DNA of 50,238 bases from a virus. The notes beneath the pieces are model-generated. The model did no database searches. It worked only from the letters and a program-made list of their open reading frames with translations, and was not told where the DNA came from. The position numbers and the translations under genes are program-made. This document shows positions 1 to 43,818 of the stretch, one piece after another. Position 1 is the first letter of the stretch. Each line of letters begins with the position of its first letter. The stretch spans positions 1 to 50,238 of IMG/VR virus record IMGVR_UViG_3300015360_000063. The stretch is one strand, 5' to 3'.

Positions 1-1221
1 GGAAAAGATATAGTATATGTTGCAGTGCCCGGAAAGAATACCGGATTTGCTGTCAATAAAAAGAATTTGAGCGGGCCAACAAACGCATCAGCAAAGTCAA
101 TACGCAATCTGACGTATGCTGTTAATGAAAAAGACTTAATAAAAAATTCTGTATCTGCAGTAAAAAATTCTGTATCTGCAGTAAAAAATTCTGTATCTGC
201 AGTAAAAAATTCTGTATCTAAATTATTACATAAATCTGTAAAAATACCATCTAATGTACAAGAGTTAATGTCGTCAGATGATTTAAAAAATTATGAAACA
301 CAGGAAAATATTAAAACACTGACATACCCAAAAATAAATTTAAAACGTCTTGATGCAATAAAATATGAAGCTAATTACATATTAGAAAAATCGAAAGACG
401 AGAAAAGCAAAGAAAAAAACGCTGACCTATTGAGAGTTTGGGAGATGGGCATTAAAAATGTCAATGACCACTTTCAAAAAGTCATAGACGTTAACAAAGT
501 TATGATAGATGTTAAAGGTGTTGTCAATGGTAAAACCGAAGAACTTGTTAAATCTAACCAGGAGACAATGACAAAATTGGAAAAGCTGGGTCTTGTTGAG
601 ACGGTTCCCGATGGAAGTAAATTTGATGTCAAAAAACTTTATGCTTTCGACTGTACTATCACAGGACAAAATAACACGGCCGAAAATATGGTTATTATGA
701 TGAGTCCTACTGTAGAATTCATTGAGAAACTTGATGGAAAGACATATTTTTGGTTCAAGCTTCTGGGTGCTTACAGTTATGACCTAAAATCAGATAAAAT
801 TATTCGTAAGAATATATTCAGTAATTTGACACAAAATCAAGAGATTATAAAGAATTATAATAATATTGGAAATTCATATTATGCGTGTTTAACTAATCTT
901 AGGTCTAATTCTAACGCATTTTATTTTGAAATATATTCAAACAAGGGTAGTTTCTTTTTTAACTTAAAAATTTATAACGATGTTGATGAAGTCAAAGACC
1001 AAATTCTTGCACAGAAAAAAAACAAATTTGTAGAAACACGAGCACAGATTGCGCGTAGTTCTAATTTCTTTAAAATTAAAATAAACCAGCGATTTTTGGC
1101 AGATGATGAGAATATAAAATCTGGTAAATATCCAGGAATAGACATGGCGTCATTAAACAAAGACAATGGTATTATAGCATCTAAAGCAAATCACGATAAA
1201 TTCATGGCACTCATAAACTAA
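1..1221 (+). CDS. Uncharacterised phage protein, 5' end outside window
   Basis: The reading frame is open from base 1, so the true start lies upstream; the first in-window start-like codon is a GTG at 25. About 407 residues are visible. Near the N-terminus a 7-residue unit KNSVSAV is repeated three times plus a partial fourth copy, encoded by a 21-bp tandem repeat. The rest is lysine-rich with a helical, coiled-coil-like middle and a beta-rich C-terminal half containing many aromatic residues. I do not recognise the family. Its stop overlaps the start of the next gene by one base (TAATG), so the two are probably translationally coupled. Position just before a tape-measure-like gene suggests a tail-associated role, which is inference. 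Confidence 0.8.
   Translation, partial: GKDIVYVAVPGKNTGFAVNKKNLSGPTNASAKSIRNLTYAVNEKDLIKNSVSAVKNSVSAVKNSVSAVKNSVSKLLHKSVKIPSNVQELMSSDDLKNYETQENIKTLTYPKINLKRLDAIKYEANYILEKSKDEKSKEKNADLLRVWEMGIKNVNDHFQKVIDVNKVMIDVKGVVNGKTEELVKSNQETMTKLEKLGLVETVPDGSKFDVKKLYAFDCTITGQNNTAENMVIMMSPTVEFIEKLDGKTYFWFKLLGAYSYDLKSDKIIRKNIFSNLTQNQEIIKNYNNIGNSYYACLTNLRSNSNAFYFEIYSNKGSFFFNLKIYNDVDEVKDQILAQKKNKFVETRAQIARSSNFFKIKINQRFLADDENIKSGKYPGIDMASLNKDNGIIASKANHDKFMALIN
141..219. repeat. 21-bp tandem repeat inside the first gene
   Basis: Three identical 21-bp units (141-161, 162-182, 183-203) and a partial fourth to 219. The unit is a multiple of three, so it encodes KNSVSAV repeats in frame. Perfect identity suggests recent expansion by slippage or recombination. 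Confidence 0.95.
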
Positions 1222-9140: not shown

Positions 9141-9190
9141 ATTTGAAAGTTATGATTAGTATAAAATACCAGATTCATCTTCGATTTTGA
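9112..9190. repeat. 79-bp direct repeat, copy 2 (capsid 3' end)
   Basis: Identical to 8416-8494. Here the coding part is the genuine end of the major capsid gene. Confidence 0.97.
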
Positions 9191-10895
9191 TAGCCATGTA
9201 TTGCTTCTCCGGAAAAAATCCAAATTCACAAATTGCAAAACGAGAGTACATGTACAGACGTGGTGCCATTGTTTTTTCTGAAGTGATTTCAACTGATTCA
9301 GCTAACATGTAAGCTAAGAATTTCAATCCTGGCTCTTCTTTCTTACCGATACGACCTAAGTAGATAGTTAAATCTGCTGGTCCCATGTATGGGTCAACGT
9401 AAAGTTTAATACCGTCGATTGTACCTGCTGGTTGTAATTGGTTTGGTCCTGCTAACTTGGCGTCTAATGGATTGATTGTATAACGCTCAACACCTTTCAG
9501 GATGCCTGCAACAGTACCAGAAGTTACAACGTAGTCAATGCCAGCGATACGGCCGTCATTTGCAACATAGTAAGATGCTTGTTGAACTTTTGACCACAAT
9601 TTACGTGAAATTGAAGCATTGTGTTCTCCACCTAAAGCTGCTGCTGTAGCTGTAACTGACATATCAAATATTTTACCATCTGTAATACCACCACCTGCTA
9701 AACCTGCTAACATTGCTGCTGGAGCTGCTGGAGCTGTAGCACGATTTTTTAATCCCATTTCCTTTACTTTGTCTACGATTTCTGTAGAGATTTTCTGAGA
9801 GATTTGGTTAACTAACTGTGCCTTAGTTTTTTCAACTACGTCAACACCGTACATACGTTTCCAGTCGCCGATTTCAGATAATCTTAAAGCTGCAGATACG
9901 TGAGCCACACCGATTTCAACTGATTTAGTGAAAGAGTTTGGCCCGATTTTACCGGCTTCGTCGATTTCCCATGCGCCACGAGTCATTGTCTTGTTGCGTC
10001 CTGTTGTGAAATCGTCGATGAAATCTTCGTTTAGAGAAACTAGAGCAACATTTGCTACTGCAGTTATTACATAAGACGCTGCTGAAAAGTTAGTATCGTC
10101 GATTGTACCAGCTGTTAATAATGCGCTGATAGCACCAGCAGTTGGGAATGTGTTTAATGCTTGGTTAAACTGCCATGCGCCAGCTGACGCTGAGTTTTGT
10201 TGGATATATGCACGGAACATTGGTAGACCGTCGATGCGTGAAAATCCTTTGAATTCAAACCATCCTAGTTTAGAACCGGCTGGAGCTACTCTAGAATCAT
10301 ATGATGCTTGTACAGCACCAAAAGCACCACCGCTAACGTGAAAATACAATTTGTTAGAAATACGACCGCGTAATTCAGTTGTACCAGTAAACACCATTTC
10401 TGCACGTAAGAACGCAACTAGAGTTGTGAAATTTGCGTCTGCAGTTGGGCGAAATTTGAAAGTTGAAGTTCTTTCATCTTCTACACCGTTAGCGTTAGCA
10501 ACGTCATCATAAGACCAATCAAAGTACAATAAATCTACGCGATTTGAGTTAACATTGATTGTCGGCAATAATTCCAAACCTGGGGTTTGTGCTGCAATCT
10601 TTAAAGACGCCGGTAATAAAGTTTGACCTAAATCTCCAGAACCTGATGTTCCCGGTAAACCTGGAATTGCAGATAAACCTGGGAATTGTACATTACCCAT
10701 ACCTGCGGTATTTGCCATGTTTGCATATGCAACATTTTCTTTTACCATACCAGCAGTAATTGCTGATGCATGCATTTCAGCATACTCACATAATTCGTTG
10801 ATACGTTCAACGTTAGTGATACCTAATTTTTCAACGATTGGTTTCCATTTTTTAAATGCTTTGTCCATATCGATTGCTAATTGAGAATTTCTCAT
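9156..10895 (-). CDS. Major capsid protein, T4 gp23-like
   Basis: 579 residues, close to the length of T4-type capsid proteins (~520). It has a helical N-terminal arm of about 70 residues likely to be removed on maturation (LCE around residue 36 is a plausible cleavage site, inferred). A glycine/proline-rich linker follows, then the beta-rich core with the helix SVEIGVAHVSAALRLSEIGD and WKRMYGVD, which resembles the conserved gp23 spine helix. It assembles the icosahedral shell. The gene lies downstream of the protease-scaffold and portal genes on the same strand, the reverse-map equivalent of the T4 order 20-21-22-23. A late-type promoter box lies 36 bases upstream. Confidence 0.85.
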   Translation of the reverse strand: MRNSQLAIDMDKAFKKWKPIVEKLGITNVERINELCEYAEMHASAITAGMVKENVAYANMANTAGMGNVQFPGLSAIPGLPGTSGSGDLGQTLLPASLKIAAQTPGLELLPTINVNSNRVDLLYFDWSYDDVANANGVEDERTSTFKFRPTADANFTTLVAFLRAEMVFTGTTELRGRISNKLYFHVSGGAFGAVQASYDSRVAPAGSKLGWFEFKGFSRIDGLPMFRAYIQQNSASAGAWQFNQALNTFPTAGAISALLTAGTIDDTNFSAASYVITAVANVALVSLNEDFIDDFTTGRNKTMTRGAWEIDEAGKIGPNSFTKSVEIGVAHVSAALRLSEIGDWKRMYGVDVVEKTKAQLVNQISQKISTEIVDKVKEMGLKNRATAPAAPAAMLAGLAGGGITDGKIFDMSVTATAAALGGEHNASISRKLWSKVQQASYYVANDGRIAGIDYVVTSGTVAGILKGVERYTINPLDAKLAGPNQLQPAGTIDGIKLYVDPYMGPADLTIYLGRIGKKEEPGLKFLAYMLAESVEITSEKTMAPRLYMYSRFAICEFGFFPEKQYMAIKIEDESGILY

Positions 10896-11185: not shown

Positions 11186-13561
11186 TTACTTTGTATTAAA
11201 GTTCTCCATAGTCTTCATGAAAGAATTGATATACTTATCAGATAACACGTCATTGTCGACAGTGTTTGCTGATTCCTTAATCAAAATCGCTTCAGCACCC
11301 AATACAGATTTAGCAAACGGACGAGTACTCCAGAAATTTGCAATATCTGCGTTCGTGACTAAATTGAAATATTTAGATTCTGATATGATTGATAACTTTT
11401 GTTCTTGTGCCATGTTATTCCATGATTCAGTCAATGTCTTAGGTACGTTAGAGATTAATCTCTCGTCGTATGTCATTGTCTTCTCATTGATTACACGACC
11501 GATAACGTTCAATACATCTTGTGTGTTGTAGTATTCGCTATTGTATAATTCAAGAGTGATTGCAGCACGGTATGCACTTTCTAATAATTTGAAATCTTCG
11601 ATTTGTTGTTCAGATAAGAAATTGTAGAAATGTGGTCTCTGGTTTGCAAGTACCTTTTGTTTCTTAAGCTCAGATAATACGTGGCTAACTTTCTCAGCAA
11701 CATTTTCTTCTGGGTTTAAGACTTCGTATTGGTCGTGTCCTAATTCACTTGTATCTTCAGAACCCGATTTTTGAATAGTGATTTTATCGTCTGTAACTTC
11801 GATAACTACACCAGTCTCGTCAGTCCCCACAATCTTAACCAATGCAGACATAAGAGTGTCTTTCATGTTGTTAGGCCCGCCTTCTGGCTGAACATCAGTA
11901 ACATCATTGATATTAAGTGCCGCCGGTACATCTTGTGGTTGTACGTCAGATGTAGGCTCAGAACTTGTTACTACAGGTTCTTCTGTCGTCATAATTGTTG
12001 GTTCAACTTCAGTAACCCCAGCAGATTGCTCTTCTGTTGGTGTTTCAGTAAACTCTTCTTGGTTCTCGATGTTATTGATTACCTCTTGTTCTTCTTCAAT
12101 TCCTAAGAATTCAACAATAGTCTCTAGTGAATGTATTGCATTTGGTGCAGTATTCTCGTTTACTGGAAGTGATGACTTAACGCTTTCTACAACTTTAACA
12201 TTGTATGCAACAACACCGTCAACTTTCTCTGCGATATAATCTAAGAAAATTTGGTCTCTGTAACATTCGTTGGCTACGTATTCTAACATGCCTTGTGTGT
12301 CTTTAACCTCACCTGCGATACTCTCGGCAAATTTCTGTGCTATTTCTGTTTCCGCGGCAACGTTCTCAGCAAACTGCTGTGCTATTTCTGTTTCCGCGGC
12401 AACGTTCTCAGCAAACTGCTGTGCTATTTCTGTTTCCGCGGCAACGTTCTCAGCAAACTGCTGTGTTATTTCTGTTTCTGCAGCAACATATTCTAAGAAC
12501 TCTGCATTATTTGCCACGTTCTCAGCAATCTTAGTTACATTGTTTGCGATGTCTTCAGAGAACAAGATGTTTGCTTTAGCGTGTTCCGCAACATACTCAA
12601 TCATCTTCTCGTCAACTGATAATCTAGTTTCGATGTCGACCGTGTATTTGTTTAAGTTTTTTAATTGAGACGCGATATGATTAGAATACGCAGTATTCTC
12701 GTTAATCTCGTATTTCAACTTGCTATTGTCAGAAACCAACTTAGAGTTTTCTGATACCAAGTGAGATACCTTAGTTTTCAAGAATGATAAATATTCTTTT
12801 ACTGCTCCCATCTCTTCGTTTAAGATTTCATGTTTCTCCATTAATCCTTTAACTTCTGGAGCATACTTTCCATTACCTAATTTCGATAATATTTGGTGTT
12901 CTAATTTAGCCATTTCATTTGCTAAAATTCCTTCCATGTGTTTTAAATCCATTGCTGTTTTTCTGTCATTTTTATTGTCTAAAAATAAATTATTTACCTG
13001 GTCGTCCTTCATCTCATAGATGCGGTAAGGTACGTCAATAGTAGTTTTCAATCCAAAACTTTCATTAACACTAACACGTGCTGACGGAAAACCTGGGTCT
13101 ACAACAATGTCGTAAGTGAACAATTCTTTTAGTGCTACGTTTCCAGAACCGTCTGTAACGCCTGCGGCTCTTGAAGACACGAATAACGGGTAACCGTCAT
13201 TAATAATTGCACGGGCTTCTTTACCATAATGTGTGCTCAATAATGCAATAGAACCATCGACACGTTTAGAATTTTCGTTATGTATTAGAGATTCAATCGC
13301 GTGTGACACATTTTTACCTGCAATGTCAAAAACATCCGGATGATCAAATTCACCATATAATACACCTAACATTTTGCGTTTTTCTAATAATGCTGTCATG
13401 CATGGTATAAAATTTTTGGCGTTATAAAAACGTTTATTACGATTTTCTATATCGAATTCTGTAAATATACCACTTAGTAAGAATTTTGACGTAGAACTAG
13501 CTGATTCATTTTTTTTCAATGATTCTGTGCCATTCTCGACAATTAATACGTGTTTTTCCAT
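11186..13561 (-). CDS. Prohead protease fused to scaffold/core protein
   Basis: 791 residues. Residues ~25-190 match the T4 gp21 prohead protease (herpesvirus assemblin-like serine protease): GEFDHP (70-75) with His74, a second conserved His at NVSHAI (87), and the serine motif FVSSRAAG (127-134). The remaining ~600 residues are acidic and mostly coiled coil, with 14-residue repeats (QQFAENVAAETEIA type) at about residues 365-420, as expected for an internal scaffold. In T4 the protease (gp21) and scaffold (gp22) are separate, so this is a natural fusion that would deliver one protease per scaffold chain and be degraded on maturation. A near-perfect TATAAATA late box lies just upstream. Confidence 0.85.
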   Translation of the reverse strand: MEKHVLIVENGTESLKKNESASSTSKFLLSGIFTEFDIENRNKRFYNAKNFIPCMTALLEKRKMLGVLYGEFDHPDVFDIAGKNVSHAIESLIHNENSKRVDGSIALLSTHYGKEARAIINDGYPLFVSSRAAGVTDGSGNVALKELFTYDIVVDPGFPSARVSVNESFGLKTTIDVPYRIYEMKDDQVNNLFLDNKNDRKTAMDLKHMEGILANEMAKLEHQILSKLGNGKYAPEVKGLMEKHEILNEEMGAVKEYLSFLKTKVSHLVSENSKLVSDNSKLKYEINENTAYSNHIASQLKNLNKYTVDIETRLSVDEKMIEYVAEHAKANILFSEDIANNVTKIAENVANNAEFLEYVAAETEITQQFAENVAAETEIAQQFAENVAAETEIAQQFAENVAAETEIAQKFAESIAGEVKDTQGMLEYVANECYRDQIFLDYIAEKVDGVVAYNVKVVESVKSSLPVNENTAPNAIHSLETIVEFLGIEEEQEVINNIENQEEFTETPTEEQSAGVTEVEPTIMTTEEPVVTSSEPTSDVQPQDVPAALNINDVTDVQPEGGPNNMKDTLMSALVKIVGTDETGVVIEVTDDKITIQKSGSEDTSELGHDQYEVLNPEENVAEKVSHVLSELKKQKVLANQRPHFYNFLSEQQIEDFKLLESAYRAAITLELYNSEYYNTQDVLNVIGRVINEKTMTYDERLISNVPKTLTESWNNMAQEQKLSIISESKYFNLVTNADIANFWSTRPFAKSVLGAEAILIKESANTVDNDVLSDKYINSFMKTMENFNTK
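12339..12464. repeat. 42-bp tandem repeats in scaffold region
   Basis: Three essentially identical 42-bp units (12339, 12381, 12423) with degenerate units on both sides, encoding 14-residue coiled-coil repeats. The length is in frame and a multiple of two heptads. Confidence 0.95.
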
Positions 13562-13630: not shown

Positions 13631-15355
13631 TTAAGCTACATCATCTCCGCCTGTGTCAGTCGGTGGCGTTTCTTCAGCCGCGGCTGTTTCAGCTCCAGTG
13701 TCAGTCGGTAGAGTTTCTTCAGCCGCGGCTGTTTCAGCTCCAGTGTCAGTCGGTAGAGTTTCTTCAGTCGCTGCTGTTTCAGCATCACCAGCTCCAGCAC
13801 CACCAGCGCCAGCATCGTTCTTCCAGAATTGCTCGTTCTCGGCCATCTGTTCGTCAGTAAACTCCATAATGTGTTTGGCAAGGAATCTCCAATGCAACAT
13901 TGGTTTATCATCTTCACGTTTCAGGTTACTCTGTAAATCATTTGCTATAGACGCTTTGGCCTGCATGTTTGATAACATCTTGGCTTTTATTAATTCCGAG
14001 TGTCCGTAGAAAATTATATTCAAGTCATTGTACAACTTATTGTCAGATTCTAGTTCCGGAAAATCTAAAAGCAGCTGTAAGATTAATGGTTTCAAGAGAA
14101 CGTCTTTGAACAAAGTTCTCAATCGCTCGATATATTGTTGGAAGTTGTAGTCGTCGTGTGTCAATTCGCCGCCCAGGCTGTAGATGTTACCGCCACCAGT
14201 GCTATTGTCAAGTCTGGTAAACGGGAACTTAGAAGCACGCTTCAATGCGTTGTGAAACCATATTAACATGGTGTTCTCGTTCAGGTCATGACCTCCAGGC
14301 TCGATGATACTCATTTCCGGTTTCGCATCGCCCGGATTAGGCAACCAGTATTCCTTAGAATATGGCAAGTCCTTGCTTCCGTCAATGTAAATCAAACCGG
14401 TCGTATCGTCAAACGCTATATGGTCTTTGTAATCCGCGATAAGCGTCGCAATCTCTTGTTCTGCTTGCATCGGTGACAACCCCTGTGTCGGGATGATGAA
14501 CTGCTTGTGCATTGTTGCGTTGATTAAGTTGAAAAGCAACTTGGCGCGTTCGATGCTTTTTAGTTCGTTATAAGGCCTGATTAAAGGTTCTACATAACTG
14601 GTTTCCATATAATTCGAAGAACCCGAGTAAGACACATAGATAATCTCTGCATCCAATAGTATCCTTCTGTTCTGTTCGTCGTACGGATACTGTATCCACA
14701 ATTTCAGACCAGACTCAGGGTCGATTATTGGTATGACAGTAAGCGGGTCAATCTTCTGGAATCCAGCGATATTCTTACCCTTCTTATCGTATATAATCTC
14801 ACGGCACAGGAATCCCTCTACTATCCAGTCTCTGCAAATATCCCAGGCGAGTGAGCCGTCTGCAAAACCGCTTATGGTGTATATGTTCTCGAATATGTCT
14901 TTTATCTTTTTTCTCACTGCAATAGGATAAGACTCCGGTAAGTCGACGATCTCACAGAATTTCTTGTCCTTTCCGTATACAATCATCTCGTTTGCCATCT
15001 TGGTAACGAAATATCTAATCTCCACCTTAGACGCGTATTCTCTCAGAATAGGAATCTTGGTTATATAGTCTCCAGACAATGCGGCAATCGTTTGTCTCTC
15101 TTGCATTATAGCGTGGACCTTGCGACTGAACACTGTGTAATTGTATCCGCTGCTGTCAGTTATGGCTGAAGTGTCTTCGTTCGCGTGAATACCTTTCGCG
15201 TTTTTAATAGCAGCTTCTTGGTAATTACGACCGAACAACGATAGTCGAGCTACACGGCTATTGAAAAACGTCTGATTGTTCGTAGATAGACTATCTAGTA
15301 TAGTAGAGCCGGTCGAACCACTCTGTTGTCTATATGGATTATACCCTGATGCCAT
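13631..15355 (-). CDS. Portal protein, T4 gp20-like
   Basis: 574 residues, similar in length to T4 gp20 (524). The central segment with PLIRPYNELKSIERAKLLF and the following region is the conserved portal core that packs the helical wing and stem. The dodecameric portal sits at one capsid vertex, and is the docking site for the terminase and neck. The last ~60 residues carry three 15-residue repeats (ETAAAEETLPTDTGA type) encoded by a 45-bp tandem repeat, an acidic disordered tail not typical of portals. The gene precedes the protease-scaffold gene in the same direction, as in T4. Confidence 0.85.
   Translation of the reverse strand: MASGYNPYRQQSGSTGSTILDSLSTNNQTFFNSRVARLSLFGRNYQEAAIKNAKGIHANEDTSAITDSSGYNYTVFSRKVHAIMQERQTIAALSGDYITKIPILREYASKVEIRYFVTKMANEMIVYGKDKKFCEIVDLPESYPIAVRKKIKDIFENIYTISGFADGSLAWDICRDWIVEGFLCREIIYDKKGKNIAGFQKIDPLTVIPIIDPESGLKLWIQYPYDEQNRRILLDAEIIYVSYSGSSNYMETSYVEPLIRPYNELKSIERAKLLFNLINATMHKQFIIPTQGLSPMQAEQEIATLIADYKDHIAFDDTTGLIYIDGSKDLPYSKEYWLPNPGDAKPEMSIIEPGGHDLNENTMLIWFHNALKRASKFPFTRLDNSTGGGNIYSLGGELTHDDYNFQQYIERLRTLFKDVLLKPLILQLLLDFPELESDNKLYNDLNIIFYGHSELIKAKMLSNMQAKASIANDLQSNLKREDDKPMLHWRFLAKHIMEFTDEQMAENEQFWKNDAGAGGAGAGDAETAATEETLPTDTGAETAAAEETLPTDTGAETAAAEETPPTDTGGDDVA
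13653..13783. repeat. 45-bp tandem repeats at portal 3' end
   Basis: Three units starting at 13653, 13698 and 13743, nearly identical, in frame, encoding the acidic 15-residue C-terminal repeats of the portal protein. Confidence 0.95.
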
Positions 15356-36048: not shown

Positions 36049-36057
36049 ATATATAAT
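36045..36057 (+). promoter_or_regulatory. Late-type promoter motif
   Basis: TTTTATATATAAT overlapping the most upstream ATG (36056) of the terminase paralogue, which argues that translation really begins at 36086. Confidence 0.5.
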
Positions 36058-36085
36058 GTATACAAATAAATCAAAATATCGACAT

Positions 36086-36985
36086 ATGAGAATTTTTAAA
36101 ACAGAAGACATAAACAGGATAATTGAAAAAATTAATCTGGGACATAAAATGTCTAGGAAAAATAATATTTTTTTCAGACACCAAGAAGGCACGTTAGATG
36201 ACGACATTTCTGTGTTATTATCGCAAGACGAGCTTATAGAATATGGCAAGTGTGCCAATGATATTTGTTATTTTATTGAGTCATGCTGTGGTGTGAAATT
36301 GAGACAGTATCAGAAAGAATGGATAGACAATTTCATGAACAACAGGTTCATGATATATTGCACATCGAGACAGACCGGGTATTCCGCCGTCATGGCCGCG
36401 GTGTATTTGCACTACATGATATTCAATAAAAATAAAACCATATTAGTCGTATCGAATAAATGCGCGTCTGCCGTAGAATTTATGCACAAACTGTTTAAAC
36501 ATTATCAGAGAATACCATATTGGATTAAACCTGGCATTGTCACAAAAAATAATAAAAATCTTAAATTTAATAACGGTAACCAAATACGCATGCGGTCCGG
36601 AATAAAAAGTAAACCCACCGAGTTTAGTATTGATTTGTTATCATATATGGAGTTTTCGCATATCCCACAGTCAACACCAGATATGCAATATAACAACACG
36701 TTAGTGCCTGAACTATGTGCAAACACAGAATCTAAGATATGTATACAATCACAACCGGCCGGTTTTGACAGCTTTTATCAATTGATTAACGACTCAGAAC
36801 GTAAACCTAACGACCCAATGAAGAATATCTACAAGACTGTAAAGACATATTGGTGGGAAGTAGACGGGAGAGATGACACATGGAGACAACGTGAGATAAA
36901 CATTATCGGCGCCGACGCATTTGCGCGGGAATATGACCTACAGTTTGTATCGAAAGCCGTTGTACAGACGACAATAAAAATATAA
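36086..36985 (+). CDS. Degenerate terminase ATPase paralogue (P-loop-dead)
   Basis: 299 residues from the ATG at 36086 (309 from 36056, which overlaps the promoter box). It aligns along its whole length with the ATPase domain of the adjacent terminase, including FxKCAxDIxYF, R-(Q/D)-Y-Q, the long helix after the P-loop, KPG(I/L)-x-(N)-x-(N)-x-K and a shared block after it. The catalytic motifs are altered: Walker A SRQTGYS instead of SRQTGKT (Lys and Thr lost), Walker B LLSYMEFSHIP instead of FLYMDEFAHIP (Asp lost), and coupling motif SQPAG instead of STPNG. There is no nuclease domain. The intact frame suggests a retained, non-hydrolysing role, for example as a terminase partner. This is inference. 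Confidence 0.8.
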   Translation: MRIFKTEDINRIIEKINLGHKMSRKNNIFFRHQEGTLDDDISVLLSQDELIEYGKCANDICYFIESCCGVKLRQYQKEWIDNFMNNRFMIYCTSRQTGYSAVMAAVYLHYMIFNKNKTILVVSNKCASAVEFMHKLFKHYQRIPYWIKPGIVTKNNKNLKFNNGNQIRMRSGIKSKPTEFSIDLLSYMEFSHIPQSTPDMQYNNTLVPELCANTESKICIQSQPAGFDSFYQLINDSERKPNDPMKNIYKTVKTYWWEVDGRDDTWRQREINIIGADAFAREYDLQFVSKAVVQTTIKI

Positions 36986-36994
36986 CTAACTGAA

Positions 36995-37513
36995 ATGGGA
37001 AGACATAAGAAAGAGAAAGACCCGATAGAGAAACAGTTTGTATTCACAACAGACGCTGTAAATGACATACGGGAAAAACAGTCGCAAGGCTTTGACATAC
37101 CTAGGTACATGAACCCGTGGTTCAAAAAAGAAATGGGCGTGAGAAGAACCGGTTGTGTATTCGGGTGGACCCAAGAAGAAATAGACGAGTTCACGAAATG
37201 TGCATTAGACATACACTATTTCGCGAACACATACTGTCACATAAAATCCGAAGACGGCCAGATCAGGCAGATGAAATTACGGGATTACCAATATAAAGTG
37301 CTTGACGCGTACACTAAAAACAGATTCACGTTGAACATGTCGTCAAGGCAAACAGGCAAGTGTATAGGTCCTATAACCAACGTGTCGTGTATGATAAATA
37401 ATGCGGTCGTAGAACTACCCATGTTCAAATTGCTGTTTGAGTACAGAGAAAACAAAACATTTTACGACTATATAAAATACCCGATATATTGGGTGTTATG
37501 GAAATTAAACTAA
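36995..37513 (+). CDS. Terminase large subunit N-terminal extein plus N-intein fragment
   Basis: 172 residues. Residues 1-122 are the start of a T4 gp17-like terminase, ending in MSSRQTGK, the first part of the Walker A P-loop. Residue 123 (Cys, codon at 37361) begins an intein: CIGPITNVS matches intein block A with the nucleophilic Cys1. The intein sequence runs 50 residues, then stops before block B. The rest of the intein and terminase is encoded by the gene at 37699. Protein trans-splicing would join Lys122 to Thr of the second chain and restore SRQTGKT. The split between blocks A and B is that of the atypical split inteins with a short N-fragment, such as AceL-TerL. Confidence 0.85.
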   Translation: MGRHKKEKDPIEKQFVFTTDAVNDIREKQSQGFDIPRYMNPWFKKEMGVRRTGCVFGWTQEEIDEFTKCALDIHYFANTYCHIKSEDGQIRQMKLRDYQYKVLDAYTKNRFTLNMSSRQTGKCIGPITNVSCMINNAVVELPMFKLLFEYRENKTFYDYIKYPIYWVLWKLN

Positions 37514-37698
37514 TTAAAAGAATAAAGCATACGCACCAATTGAAATAATACGGTTACATACAAACTGCAACTAATGACGAATTTGATACTGTAATTATAT
37601 AAGACGCCAATACAGATTTATATGTATCACAGATGATAATAAACAAAATTGATGAAATAAAAATAAAAAGATGTATAAATCTTATACAATCGTAATGC
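37514..37698 (+). pseudogene. Decayed intein segment between the two terminase pieces
   Basis: 185 bases. In the frame of the downstream C-intein gene this region reads as protein-like stretches (for example from 37549 and from 37603, the latter 30 codons) interrupted by TAA codons at 37546, 37600 and 37693; the upstream N-intein is in a different frame. It therefore looks like the former middle of a contiguous intein, now fixed as a break by a frameshift and nonsense changes. An A-rich run at about 37655-37672 may serve as the translation start region of the second gene, and a 7-bp hairpin TGTATAA/TTATACA follows it. Confidence 0.55.
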
Positions 37699-39933
37699 AT
37701 GAAAAAAATCATAAATAGAATTCTATTTGACATAATTGAAAAGATAGAGTCATATCAGTACAGAAATACCACTTTAGACCAAGACTGTGTATTAAAAAAA
37801 ACAAAAAACATTACATTCACTGACAAAAAAGATTTGTACGTGGATTCGCCGGAAGGCTGGGTTAAGGTGACTGAAATAAACGAGACACAACCATATAAAA
37901 TATGGTTTATGAAAACAGAAAATGGCAAAGAACTGTTTTGCGCCGATAACCATATCGTGTTCGATAGCTTGGGTCAAGAAATATTAGTTAAAGAATTAAG
38001 TGTAGGCCAACACATAATCACTCGTGACGGATTCGAAAAGATTACTGTTATGTATGTGTACAATACTTCCAATAGTATGATAGATTTGACCGTAGGCGGC
38101 AAAGAAATGAGGTATTACACAAATGATATTTTGAGTCATAACACGATATGCGCGGCAATAACACTACTACATTATTCTATTTTTAATACAAATAAAGGTA
38201 TAATGGTTGTAGCGAATAAGGGCGAGACGGTTATAGAGATTTTGGACAAGATTAAAAATATATACAAGTTACTGCCATTCTTTCTTAAGCCGGGGCTTAT
38301 AAACTGGAACACCAAATCCATAGTTTTTGACAACGGCTGTCGTATAAAATCACAGGCACGTTCAAAAGAACCGGCGATCGGTTTTACGATAGACTTTCTC
38401 TATATGGACGAGTTTGCTCACATTCCGAGGAGTATAATAAACCACTATTACAAGGCCGTTATACCCACAGTGTCGTCCATCAAGAATTCTAAGGTGGTCA
38501 TAACGTCGACACCAAACGGCGCCAATCTGTTCAAAGATTTGGTCATGGGCGCGTCGTTGCCTAATGGGCATGCAGACAAGAATATGTACAGCCTGATAAA
38601 GGTGCTGTGGTATCAAGTACCAGACGGCAAATTTGAAGACGGTACGACCGGGACAAGATTCGACGCACGGCTTTACCCATTGGCATTTGAAATGGCGACA
38701 CACAAGTTCAGTGTCGAGAAGCTCGTGAAACACCTACAAGGTCTCAATTTCAAGGTAGCTATAGAACAGGAGACTACTGATACTGGCAATAAAGATTTCG
38801 TACGTATATTATACAAGGACGGCGTCACAGATGTCGAATCGATCAAGAAGATGGATTTAGACGGACTGAATGTTGCGAAGATTTGTACTATAACGAACTG
38901 GAAAGAGCAGGAGACTAAACTGATCGGTGGCGAAGAGGCATTCAACCAGGAATACGGATGCCAGTTCATTGCCGGGTCTAAGCGGGTGTTGAGCGCGCCA
39001 AAGGCGAAGGAGCTCGAAGCGCGTACCGAAGTTTATAAGACCAGAGAGATTGAGATTCTGACAAAGAGACTGCGATTCACGTATAACGAGCTGCGTTGGG
39101 CACCTGATTATATAGAGCACGAGAGAAACAACTACTACTGGGTTTCCATGATGGATGTGTCAGAGGGTTTGGGACTGGATGACTCGGTAATCAATCTGTT
39201 CAGGCTGATGGTGAGGCCCAAATCTTGGTTGTTGGAAAACAAGATCAAGACGATGTACGACGCGTTCTACCTAAAACAGACGGGCATATACAATTTTAAC
39301 CGATTAGACCACAAGAAGGAACTGCCTGAGTTATTTTACATGTTACATTTCGAGTACTTAAATCCCGAACGCGTTAAATCCGTTGTAGAATACAACGGGC
39401 CGGGTTCCACGTTCATAGTGGCGCTCAACCAGGTGTTTGACGGAAACAACGATTTCGGTAGTCACGTGCTAGTCAGGTATAAACATAGGACGGATGACAA
39501 CACAAAAAAAATGGGTCTTAAGGTCAGCCGTAACAAAAAAGAGCTGGTGAAATCGTACATAGACTGTATCGAGACGGACATGCTGTATGTAGACGAGAAT
39601 ATCACGCTGGACCAGATGGATAATTTCATAAAGGTTGACACCAGGAGCGGTGACGTGACGTATCGTGCTGACGCAGGACACGACGATATAGTTATGACGT
39701 TAGTCGGCGGCGCCACATATTTTGATACCCAGGATTATAAAAATATGTGTTTTAACTATTATAACGAGCTTTCTGGAGAGTACCAGGGGTTAATTGACAA
39801 GGCATTAGACCTGGAACACAATCCTAATGCTATATCGTATAAGAGCATGAGCGCGGCTCTGGCCAAAAGTAAGAAATCAATAAGCCGTACAAACAGATTT
39901 TCTGGTGGACGAGGCCGTTTTATGGGGAAATAA
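37699..39933 (+). CDS. C-intein fragment plus terminase large subunit C-terminal extein
   Basis: 744 residues. Residues 1-148 are the C-intein: block B-like GKELFCADNHIVFD, block F-like MIDLTVGGKEMRYYTND and block G ILSHN with the terminal His-Asn, followed by Thr149 (codon 38143) as the +1 residue. The remaining 596 residues are the terminase: Walker B FLYMDEFAHIP (about 233), coupling motif STPNG, and the RNase H-like nuclease with MMDVSEG (about 485), VVEYNGPG and GHDDIVMT (about 661). Relative to the paralogue upstream, an extra ~80 residues are inserted before the ATPase end. With the N-piece the spliced terminase would be 718 residues. It packages DNA into the prohead at the portal. Confidence 0.88.
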   Translation: MKKIINRILFDIIEKIESYQYRNTTLDQDCVLKKTKNITFTDKKDLYVDSPEGWVKVTEINETQPYKIWFMKTENGKELFCADNHIVFDSLGQEILVKELSVGQHIITRDGFEKITVMYVYNTSNSMIDLTVGGKEMRYYTNDILSHNTICAAITLLHYSIFNTNKGIMVVANKGETVIEILDKIKNIYKLLPFFLKPGLINWNTKSIVFDNGCRIKSQARSKEPAIGFTIDFLYMDEFAHIPRSIINHYYKAVIPTVSSIKNSKVVITSTPNGANLFKDLVMGASLPNGHADKNMYSLIKVLWYQVPDGKFEDGTTGTRFDARLYPLAFEMATHKFSVEKLVKHLQGLNFKVAIEQETTDTGNKDFVRILYKDGVTDVESIKKMDLDGLNVAKICTITNWKEQETKLIGGEEAFNQEYGCQFIAGSKRVLSAPKAKELEARTEVYKTREIEILTKRLRFTYNELRWAPDYIEHERNNYYWVSMMDVSEGLGLDDSVINLFRLMVRPKSWLLENKIKTMYDAFYLKQTGIYNFNRLDHKKELPELFYMLHFEYLNPERVKSVVEYNGPGSTFIVALNQVFDGNNDFGSHVLVRYKHRTDDNTKKMGLKVSRNKKELVKSYIDCIETDMLYVDENITLDQMDNFIKVDTRSGDVTYRADAGHDDIVMTLVGGATYFDTQDYKNMCFNYYNELSGEYQGLIDKALDLEHNPNAISYKSMSAALAKSKKSISRTNRFSGGRGRFMGK

Positions 39934-39987: not shown

Positions 39988-42900
39988 ATGAGTATTAACT
40001 TATCAGACTATAATCGTGCTGGCGTTTTTATCGAAGAGAGAAATAATTCAGTAATAGATAGACCAGCAGCCCAAGAAGCTGTAGTCAATTTTATACCCGG
40101 GTTTTCTAGAAAAGGCACGGTATTTAATCGTCCCGTTCTGATCAAAACCAAATCCGATAGAACGACATATTTCGGAGAAATTGATCGTTTTCTTGAAAAG
40201 AAGAGTTCATATTTTCACAGAACTATAGAAATCGCATTACAGACAGCGCCAGTATGGGCATTAAATATACTAAAGACTACGTCTTTGGACAAACTAAATT
40301 ATGCTTCGGTTTCGTTATCTGCACAATATGATAACACCCCAGTAGCACAACGTCAGTATGACGATTTCTTCAACAAGTCGGGTTTCTGGCAGCGTGACAC
40401 TGAATCGTTTTTATTCTTTGCGCGTAACTCACAACGCATGTTACATTTCACCAATGTTAGTGACAAGAAAATAACAATTTTCATGTTCAAATCTAGCATT
40501 CCTGGATACGACATCACCGCAGAGTTATGGTACGGCGGTAGAGAGAAAGTTCCAACATGGATGAGCCCGTCAGATTTCATATCTGATTATATGGTTAGAG
40601 TTGTTGCTGTAAATGGCGACTGGTCAAACTATGTGACACTGGCGTCTGACCCTAACTGGAGCAAGTATTTCGCTTCTAGTGGTTTGAGAAAGAATAAAGT
40701 TGACGATTTCATTCGTGACAAAGGCGTTACCAAATTAGGTGACTACACTGGTTCATTGATTCCATTCTTCAGAGACAATAAGAACAACAATGTCTTCATC
40801 GAGACTCTGGTAAACTTAGAAACTGACCGTACGGGATTATTTGCAGCGTTCGACATCGACAACGTTGAAACAGATTTTACTAGTGGTAACATTGACATAA
40901 TTGGTCAAACACTTGTAGATATAGATAAACCTAAAATCAATTTCATGTCTTATCAGGACACAATCGAAGAAACTGATTTCTACGATAACATGCCATTAGA
41001 TACTCGTGGCAACGTAATCGGTATCAGCAATATACTTACACGTACCACAAACAATACGAACGGTTTATTGTCAGGTATGGGCGTGGCTCTGGGCGGTTCA
41101 TTCTCTACTACTGCTACACCATCGCTTACAGTGACTGGCGGTACTGCCAATATCAATAACCTCACATTGACTGTTCCGACATTGGCGATTAACTTATTGC
41201 CACTGGTTGCTCCAGCATTAGGCGTAAATTACCGCGTAGCCGCGATTTATGTCGACGCGACTAGTGTGATTCAAGTTGCTACAGGCACTGTGATAAATAT
41301 CGCAGGACCATTACTGACAGAAGCAAATGCCGTTTTAGGCGGATTAACATATCCTGCATCGATGTCAAACAATGCTATAGTGCTAGGATATGTATTCAGC
41401 ACAGTAGATAACAGTAGCGTACACTCTAATGCCTATGTGTCGGTTGCCCTAGGAATAGGAGCTGGCTCTTATGTGCCTTTGTCTATTGGTCTTGCGGGTC
41501 TTGACATTGTTGTTGCTAATACGGCAACTAACATCTTGGATATAACATTCAATCAGACGGCGACAGCGACAAAAGCAAATTACAGAGCGTGGAGAAGAGT
41601 TTTATTCTTTAACGAATTGGTAACTAAGTACGTTCTTACTAATTCTGTGATAATCGATTCATTAGGAGCTAAAATAGATTTATCTGCTGCAATGTGGACT
41701 GACAATTACTCTGCTGGTGCAGGCGACAAGAACATCGTCATCACAACGACAAGTGTTGACATCAAGACACAGTCTTATGCTTCTGGAAAATTCGTGTTCT
41801 TCTACAATGACAATGAATTCGTAATGAATACAACAGGTCTTGAGACTAGAAGCAATGCTTCAGGTACTGCAAACTACGGTATTGTTGCTAAGAATTCAGA
41901 GATGTACCAAGATTTCTATAACGGTATGATTAACACTGGTGATCACTTCTTCGTAAAGAAGGCTGTGACCACATCGATGAAGTTTGTAAACTACACAAAT
42001 GTTTCTAACCCGACAAGCGTTGGAAGTTGGATTATAATGAACTCGGCTGATTCCCTAGCATTAGGAATAGGTGCCGGTTCAAACAATTTTCGCTTGTTGA
42101 TACAGTCACACCCGGTTAACGCCGGAGACTTCTTGTTAACTACCGGTTACGGTTACGACGCTGTCCCAGTGGTCGGTACACCGGAATTCGGTTTACAGGG
42201 CGATGGATTTTTAGCTGTCGGTGAGGTCGCATATCAAGTAAACAATCTAGTATCTACATACGTGACAACCCAGACTATAGATGCATTCGATTACAACGCT
42301 AAGGCGTACTTGAAAATGTATTTCGTTGGTGCCATCATGAAAGTAGAGTTCATGGCGGATAACACGTTAATTACCCCATTCACTGTACCTGGCGGTTTAT
42401 TGTCAATCAATACAACAATCAATGTATACTCTGGAGAAGCAGCTTACGAACAGACACTCGAGATTGAACAGCACGCGGCATACACGATAACAGACACTAA
42501 GGTGTTAATCGATTTAGTTCGTTACCCTGAAGTTAAAGTCGGCGATTATGTTAAGGCGTTCATCGACTCTGGTTCTTTACAACCTGGGCAGTTTCCTAAG
42601 AAATTCTCGAGAATCATCAAGAAAACACCATGGTCCGGAAACGTGGCGCACAACGTACAATATGCAGAGATTACATTGGACATCAAATTGGCCATTCAGT
42701 TATACGGTTCTGACATGCAGACTACACGCTATACTAAAATCGAAGATTACATCGATACTTACAAGGCGATCTCTCTGGGCGGTTTTGCGGTACAGTCTGC
42801 TTCAATTCCTGATGGAACGGAAGCTCGTCAATCTGAGATATTAGATATAATCGGAAAAAACACTGCATTGTATTATGCCATCACTAACAAGAATAAATTT

Positions 42901-43818
42901 AACTTCCGTTATTTAATCGATAGTTTCGGTTTGGGCTTAACGGAGTTCTCTAAGCAACAATTAGCTGACATAACTGGTAAACGTAAGAACTGTATTGGTT
43001 TCTTAAATATGCCGAGCGTCAAATACTTTAAGTCTTCTTCAAACCCATCGTTCATAAATACAGACGGTACATTAAACTTAGAATATGTCAGATTGGGCGG
43101 TAATCCAGGAGCAAATCCGGCATTCGTATACAGCTTCGCACAGGGTGCAGGTAAAGACGACGGTCGTGATACCACCGGTTACTTCTTCCCATATGTGACT
43201 GTTAACGATGACGGAAGACCATTGATATTCCCACCAGCGTCATATTGTGCTAATACATACATGAGAAAATTAAATTCTCCTATCGCCGGTATTTACAACT
43301 GGACGGTTGCTGCTGGTACTGAAGACGGGAAAATCTTAGGTATAGCAAATGTTGAGATGGACTTCACTGAGAAAGATTTGGAGAACATGTATACAATGGG
43401 CGCGAATCCATTAATGTATGCTAAGAACAAAGGTTTCTACATAGAGACTGAGTGGACTGCATTGACATCGCCCTTGTCTGCTTTATCATACTTACACGTC
43501 AGAGAAATCTTAATTGATCTAGAGAACGAGTTATATGCAATGTTGTTGAAATACCAATGGAAATTCAACACGCCTGCTATACGTGCTAAAATCAAGCGTG
43601 AGGCTGATGAAATCTGTCAGAGATACGTTGACCGTTCTGCCTTATTCGCATACAACAACGTAATCGACGAGACTAACAACACACCGACACTAATAGATAA
43701 CCAGTTCGGTCTATTGGAGACTTATATTGAGCCGGTTAAATCAATGGGTATAATTGTTAACGTGATTAATGTTATGACGACTGGTGGAATTGCCGGTTCT
43801 ACGGGATTTGGCGTTTAA
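39988..43818 (+). CDS. Tail sheath protein, T4 gp18-like, unusually large
   Basis: 1276 residues, about twice T4 gp18 (659). The N-terminus (YNRAGVFIEERNNSVI, FIPGFSRKGTVFNRPVLI) is the conserved sheath start. The C-terminus (AMLLKYQWKFNTPAIRAKIKREAD through ETYIEPVKSMGIIVNVI) is the sheath core and extended C-arm. The extra length is in the middle (roughly residues 300-900), beta-rich, glycine/threonine-rich and low in charge, most likely surface domains on the outside of the tail. The sheath contracts to drive the tube into the cell. It follows the terminase as gp18 follows gp17 in T4. Confidence 0.88.
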   Translation: MSINLSDYNRAGVFIEERNNSVIDRPAAQEAVVNFIPGFSRKGTVFNRPVLIKTKSDRTTYFGEIDRFLEKKSSYFHRTIEIALQTAPVWALNILKTTSLDKLNYASVSLSAQYDNTPVAQRQYDDFFNKSGFWQRDTESFLFFARNSQRMLHFTNVSDKKITIFMFKSSIPGYDITAELWYGGREKVPTWMSPSDFISDYMVRVVAVNGDWSNYVTLASDPNWSKYFASSGLRKNKVDDFIRDKGVTKLGDYTGSLIPFFRDNKNNNVFIETLVNLETDRTGLFAAFDIDNVETDFTSGNIDIIGQTLVDIDKPKINFMSYQDTIEETDFYDNMPLDTRGNVIGISNILTRTTNNTNGLLSGMGVALGGSFSTTATPSLTVTGGTANINNLTLTVPTLAINLLPLVAPALGVNYRVAAIYVDATSVIQVATGTVINIAGPLLTEANAVLGGLTYPASMSNNAIVLGYVFSTVDNSSVHSNAYVSVALGIGAGSYVPLSIGLAGLDIVVANTATNILDITFNQTATATKANYRAWRRVLFFNELVTKYVLTNSVIIDSLGAKIDLSAAMWTDNYSAGAGDKNIVITTTSVDIKTQSYASGKFVFFYNDNEFVMNTTGLETRSNASGTANYGIVAKNSEMYQDFYNGMINTGDHFFVKKAVTTSMKFVNYTNVSNPTSVGSWIIMNSADSLALGIGAGSNNFRLLIQSHPVNAGDFLLTTGYGYDAVPVVGTPEFGLQGDGFLAVGEVAYQVNNLVSTYVTTQTIDAFDYNAKAYLKMYFVGAIMKVEFMADNTLITPFTVPGGLLSINTTINVYSGEAAYEQTLEIEQHAAYTITDTKVLIDLVRYPEVKVGDYVKAFIDSGSLQPGQFPKKFSRIIKKTPWSGNVAHNVQYAEITLDIKLAIQLYGSDMQTTRYTKIEDYIDTYKAISLGGFAVQSASIPDGTEARQSEILDIIGKNTALYYAITNKNKFNFRYLIDSFGLGLTEFSKQQLADITGKRKNCIGFLNMPSVKYFKSSSNPSFINTDGTLNLEYVRLGGNPGANPAFVYSFAQGAGKDDGRDTTGYFFPYVTVNDDGRPLIFPPASYCANTYMRKLNSPIAGIYNWTVAAGTEDGKILGIANVEMDFTEKDLENMYTMGANPLMYAKNKGFYIETEWTALTSPLSALSYLHVREILIDLENELYAMLLKYQWKFNTPAIRAKIKREADEICQRYVDRSALFAYNNVIDETNNTPTLIDNQFGLLETYIEPVKSMGIIVNVINVMTTGGIAGSTGFGV

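Follow-up and report, generated by a model that had tools for sequence, protein, structure and literature searches.

How can the packaging ATPase of a phage work when its P-loop is divided between two genes? This question is raised by a 50,238-nt stretch of viral DNA (IMG/VR record IMGVR_UViG_3300015360_000063, positions 1 to 50,238; hereafter the window), in which the gene for the terminase large subunit (TerL) is broken within its Walker A motif. The TerL is a T4 gp17-type terminase of a large T4-related phage. The window also holds a T4-like structural set, with an unusually long tail sheath (39988-43818; 1276 aa), a head maturation protease inside a 791-aa ORF, and major head and portal proteins; besides the tail sheath, the ORFs of this set lie at 11186-13561, 9156-10895 and 13631-15355. 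Such a set suggests that the window probably covers only part of the genome of a larger myophage.

The first of the two genes (36995-37513, + strand; 172 aa) encodes as N-extein the first 122 TerL residues (36995-37360), which end in SSRQTGK, the Walker A motif up to its Lys (codon 37358-37360). The frame reads on across the junction (SSRQTGK/CIGPITNVSC) into a 50-aa N-intein (37361-37513) with Cys1 (37361-37363), block A, a helix (TFYDYIKYPIYWVLWKL) and a TAA stop (37511-37513). A gap of 185 nt follows (37514-37698), which has 25% G+C, is no multiple of three and is stopped in all three frames. The second gene (37699-39933, + strand; 744 aa) begins with an ATG at 37699 and encodes a 148-aa C-intein (37699-38142) with a helix (MKKIINRILFDIIEKIESYQYRN), block B (CADNHIVF), and blocks F and G through to the terminal YYTNDILSHN. 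It continues as a C-extein of 596 TerL residues (38143-39933), from TICAA through Walker B (YMDEFAHIP) and the nuclease domain to the stop, with a reading frame free of lesions through Walker B to the C-terminus; its Thr+1, at 38143, is the Walker A Thr. The N half matched phrog_5989 (terminase large subunit; E 5.5e-18), and the C half matched Pfam Terminase_6N (E 1.2e-15) and phrog_36964 (2.3e-24). The locus consists, then, of two genes that each join an extein half to an intein half, with no continuous frame between them, and excision of the intein would leave a 718-residue TerL (122 + 596 residues) with an SRQTGKT P-loop. A sequence-only reading had described the same arrangement: a TerL frame running to SRQTGK at 37360, a Cys-led intein stopped after 50 residues, a second gene opening with a 148-residue C-intein (blocks B, F, G and terminal HN) followed by TICAA, and a rebuilt SRQTGKT in a product of 718 residues. 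Coordinates and translations agree with it throughout, apart from the gap, which it had put at 186 bases. We found no second intact TerL within the window. Scans of the gap for promoters, terminators and RNA folds gave nothing above shuffles, and a search for the exact window junction in other IMG/VR contigs returned none, so that a single contig supports it.

Directly upstream of TerL (36056-36985, + strand) lies an ATPase-domain-only TerL paralog, in which the P-loop reads SRQTGYS, with the Lys lost, and the Walker B region reads SYMEFSHIP, with the Asp lost. Lys-less counterparts with MGIS or MGIT occur in LR756500 (L016 5937-6746), LR756501 (near 700.8 kb), L112 and L179. These paralogs may form one old clade (support 74/82), and the window paralog is possibly an inactive motor subunit.

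The intein itself has all the positions of a class 1 intein: Cys1, block B with its His (CADNH), the block F Asp (MIDLTV), the penultimate His and terminal Asn, and Thr+1, the last of these forming an SHN/T junction at 38134-38145. Block A lies in the N half and everything from block B onward in the C half, which places the break between blocks A and B. The C-intein was recognized by a family HMM (E 1.8e-53) and, as a profile, by the solved inteins gp41-1 (2e-9) and VidaL (2.3e-9); its match to Pfam Intein_splicing stayed below threshold. The 50-aa N-intein on its own had no match in 50,697 phage records.

We modelled the fold on a contiguous relative, L003 (906 codons), which has an uninterrupted intein at the same site. 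The L003 sequence matches both window halves end to end, with about 50% identity in the intein, where 24 of 49 aligned residues of the N-intein are identical. Rows from phage records were left out of the alignment for this model, and mixed alignments of N and C fragments, which misplaced the N rows, were not used for it. The model (mean pLDDT 92.8, pTM 0.84) shows a HINT fold to which helices 34-48 and 53-66 add a helical hairpin. Foldseek returned the VidaL intein as best PDB match (E 2e-10, TM 0.82 by target), and all of the best 50 matches listed were inteins or intein-like domains. The HINT fold that the sequence-only reading had asked to see is thus predicted for this relative, with the VidaL intein as its nearest solved fold. 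The end of the window N-fragment maps to about residue 50 of L003 (a mapping that is noisy for divergent rows), in the turn of the hairpin, so that each window half carries one helix at the break. We infer from the model that these helices would pair, helping the fragments to find each other.

As a single query, the C-intein gave nothing confirmed among viral contigs, and an alignment of five C-inteins was needed; searched against IMG/VR, it found 105 relatives, of which 80 were kept. A scan of bacterial and archaeal genomes found none. After removal of duplicates, 51 distinct TerL loci from many metagenomes were split at the same place, with Cys1 after GK. The N-fragments, conserved across these relatives, measure 42-73 aa, and the C-fragments, each with its own ATG, mostly 145-157 aa; since the halves were defined by a GKC pattern and a Met start, their constancy is partly built in. 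Block B, the HN end and the +1 residue played no part in that definition, and the +1 residue is Thr in 48 of the 51, as in the window, and Ser in the other 3. The claim that the insertion falls exactly between the Walker A Lys and Thr is borne out by the window sequence and by about 50 relatives. Three family members are contiguous, and seven related TerLs have an empty site with an uninterrupted SRQ(T/V/I)GKT; four of these seven are the window's nearest extein kin, at ~67% identity. By these comparisons, the window locus is no isolated case: it belongs to a large family of TerL inteins that are split, and its own split is probably inherited.

Some loci depart from this common layout. In a 735-kb phage (LR756501.1; L015, L019 and L027), 12.4 kb separate the TerL halves, a stretch occupied by other ORFs that are methyltransferase-like and radical-SAM-like by eye, and the C-intein ends in NLN/T without the penultimate His, as also happens in L081 and L097. 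In LR756500.1 (L016 3959-4399), the C-intein ends in SSQ/T, with Gln for Asn, and a homing endonuclease gene (HEG) is still present between the halves. In an isolate, Vibrio phage vB_VmeM-32 (L018, KU160494.1 1102-3216, and L109/L192, 79947-80624, - strand), a different intein splits TerL at the same Lys/Cys site (SRQLGK/C): one gene carries a 35-residue N-intein, and the C-intein with the remaining TerL lies ~77 kb away on the opposite strand. This C half has a second, complete intein at Walker B.

In most split relatives, L008, L016 and L045 among them, the gap is taken up by an ORF for a Vsr/EDxHD-like homing endonuclease. By length, the gaps fall into four groups: 11-284 nt (11 loci), a short gap like that of the window; 538-589 nt, with a shortened ORF; about 970-1240 nt, holding a single sense ORF (about 310-420 aa); and 1.6-1.8 kb, where most contain a 575-aa ORF, antisense in three. 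Gap ORFs of about 330 aa combine an N-terminus resembling Ros/MucR with a C-terminus of the DUF559/MTES_1575 kind; for L033 and L045, the DUF559 match exceeds its cut-off. A model of the gap ORF resembles Vsr (probability 1.00) and the homing endonuclease I-Bth0305I (0.98), at weak E-values. Because of these domain matches and the Vsr/I-Bth0305I-like model, the ORFs of about 330 aa are very probably EDxHD-type homing endonucleases. Their stop commonly overlaps the ATG of the C half, by 8 or 25 nt, an arrangement typical of genes whose translation is coupled. The 575-aa ORF (DUF7487) lies antisense between the intein halves in L080 (2756-4483), L086 (4239-5966) and L106 (4260-5984) and in sense in L037 (4263-5984), and in L086 part of it weakly resembles an MTES_1575-like nuclease; it is presumed to be a second type of homing gene at the same spot.

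No HEG was found in the window, in keeping with the earlier remark that no homing domain remains. In other short gaps (L066, L108 and L102), HEG 3' ends are still recognizable, the L066 remnant being 92% identical to the HEG of L105. In the window gap, a stretch directly before the C-half start (KIDEIKIKRCINLIQS, stop at 37693-37695) resembles an HEG end by a position-restricted PSSM, a score reached by 9 of 5000 shuffles (p about 0.002). The full-profile HEG HMM was insignificant on this gap (353 of 2000 shuffles), as was a C-terminal HMM. With the position-restricted PSSM pointing to it and the HMMs not, the window gap no more than hints at an HEG remnant.

We asked how the split and the HEG have fared over time from a tree of the inteins, in which 54 of 57 family members are split. 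The 12 short-gap members are all separate on this tree, and supported branches force at least 11 changes, which argues that HEG loss has recurred while the split stayed. The three contiguous members require three changes and lie dispersed among the split ones, a distribution that suggests, on this unrooted tree, that the ancestor was split and that fusions have been rare. Contiguous L003 is the sister of the window (100/100); a recent break in the window's own lineage is thus less parsimonious but possible. Extein and intein trees conflict, L066 pairing with L104 by extein and with L105 by intein, as expected of mobile inteins. Between L066 and L105, dN and dS were 0.076 and 0.377 for the N-intein and 0.041 and 0.252 for the C-intein. 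Between the window and L003, differences by codon position were 44/35/87 in the C-intein, clearly favouring position 3, and 21/15/27 in the N-intein, favouring it less strongly. These substitution patterns indicate that split inteins without an HEG remain under constraint, that is, purifying selection.

A broken gene is one alternative account: a formerly contiguous intein interrupted by an indel or insertion, or by an assembly error, would leave a dead TerL or a wrong contig. The contiguity of the nearest intein relative, L003, is what such a history would predict, and the window junction does rest on one contig. Against this, the same split recurs at the same place in 51 distinct loci from many metagenomes, both exteins are intact across 718 codons in a window without another intact TerL, the codon-position pattern indicates constraint, and one indel cannot yield 185 extra nt with stops in every frame. 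Because the split recurs, the exteins are intact and no other intact TerL is present, we consider a broken gene or assembly slip very unlikely. Still less likely, in our judgement, is that a small intron of group I or II fills the gap within a contiguous intein gene, the mRNA being joined before translation. There is precedent for it in ICP1 and Jug phages, where self-splicing introns that have HEGs close by interrupt the TerL genes (PMC10448857; PMC12363816). However, even a permissive threshold brought up no Rfam intron in this part of the window, none was found in 137 kb from 13 relatives, and the 185-nt, 25% G+C gap folds no better than shuffles (z 0.71). Gaps of 11 nt in L044 and 18 nt in L031 are far below intron size, and in LR756501 other ORFs occupy the 12.4 kb that separate the halves. 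With no intron model matched, gaps as short as 11-18 nt and this 12-kb separation, RNA splicing is unlikely.

We give the lowest probability, a very small one, to a third account, in which the halves associate without splicing, by non-covalent complementation or with cleavage only. The altered C-intein ends of some relatives, LN/T without penultimate His in L015, L081 and L097 and SQ/T in L016, would be compatible with it. In the window, though, all catalytic positions are intact, and the HEG-less inteins of the family are under purifying selection. The site of the break also speaks against it: by established P-loop chemistry, an unspliced, Cys-bearing tail between the Lys and Thr of the P-loop would destroy the Walker A loop.

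We therefore favour protein splicing, and regard it as very likely that the two genes are halves of one TerL, interrupted by a class 1 intein that is naturally split, splices in trans and no longer has its homing endonuclease. The N half and the C half would each be translated separately. The helix at the end of the N-intein and that at the start of the C-intein would probably pair as a helical hairpin, uniting the fragments into a HINT domain. Cys1 would then attack the Lys-Cys bond, Thr+1 would take over the N-extein, and cyclization of the terminal Asn would release a TerL with a seamless SRQTGKT P-loop. Such an element would have descended from split inteins with a free-standing Vsr/EDxHD-type HEG between their halves; in the window phage the HEG would have been lost, leaving a non-homing, still split intein on whose splicing TerL presumably depends. 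From P-loop chemistry, one would not expect ATP to bind to a P-loop that is broken between Lys and Thr, and packaging should accordingly require splicing.

The sequence-only reading had likened this architecture to that of the AceL-TerL intein. AceL-TerL (25/104 residues, Cys1/Cys+1) and GOS-TerL (37/115, Ser1/Cys+1) are atypically split inteins covered by a review (PMC11766414, which treats Thiel 2014 and the GOS-TerL report); the PolB16 OarG split intein is 15/168, and inteins are usually split at about 100-120/35-40 aa. The likeness holds insofar as all three TerL inteins are metagenomic class 1 inteins in a phage TerL, broken between blocks A and B into a short N-fragment and a long C-fragment. 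It fails in the N-fragment, which has 50 aa in the window (42-73 in the family) vs 25 and 37; in the +1 residue, which is Thr and not Cys; and in the hairpin at the split, too much for the 25-aa AceL-TerL fragment to hold. The window N-fragment also lies outside the 15-37 aa range in the literature on atypically split inteins. Because a GK/T site must have Thr or Ser at +1, the AceL-TerL and GOS-TerL inteins should occupy a different site in TerL. With 50/148 residues and Cys1/Thr+1, the window intein fits neither the atypical nor the usual split class, and by its sequence it is other than the AceL-TerL intein itself.

Contiguous inteins are known from the same Lys/Thr site of the Walker A motif, in TerL1-a of mycobacteriophages (PMC5050341) and in Ackermannviridae such as Klebsiella phage Magnus (ARQSGK/C...HN/T). 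The HINT core of the Klebsiella phage inteins is about 40% identical over window C-intein residues 44-148, whereas contiguous P-loop inteins offer no match to the hairpin of the window or to C-intein residues 1-43, the LDENDISKK-type segment. VidaL (PDB 6vgv), the family's best structural match, is shorter, at 145 residues vs 193, and its sequence match starts at L003 residue 77, past the hairpin. An HEG between intein halves is known from the split intein of MIJ3 PolB. Dassa, in 2009, reportedly described genes fractured at split inteins and accompanied by homing endonucleases that are free-standing. The present family resembles these in that the host gene is broken inside the intein and in that, for most relatives of the window, a Vsr/EDxHD-type HEG separates the two halves. 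It differs in that the window has lost the HEG, in that one relative has its halves 12.4 kb apart, and in the place of the split, which is a hairpin between blocks A and B and not the usual endonuclease position. Among open-licence papers, we found no published description of a family of split TerL inteins in the P-loop.

Protein engineers value naturally split inteins whose N-fragment is short, yet only a handful of these have been characterized. A family of more than 50 members at one site offers a third kind of split position, in a helical hairpin with an N-fragment of about 50 aa, and the hairpin suggests a modular means to drive fragment association. The series of gaps, from HEG, degraded HEG and short remnant to fusion, 12-kb separation and empty site, exposes the life cycle of a split intein and allows one to ask why splits outlast the loss of homing. 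We tentatively suggest, as a proposal that may well prove wrong, that a large clade of P-loop TerL inteins in giant phages is ancestrally split at a lineage-specific hairpin zipper and has repeatedly lost the HEG while the split persisted, and that trans assembly of TerL, with the genes separated by as much as 12 kb, is a stable trait and may time the start of packaging. TerL is a standard phage marker, and in metagenomic phages of this kind a seemingly fragmentary TerL gene may be functionally whole.
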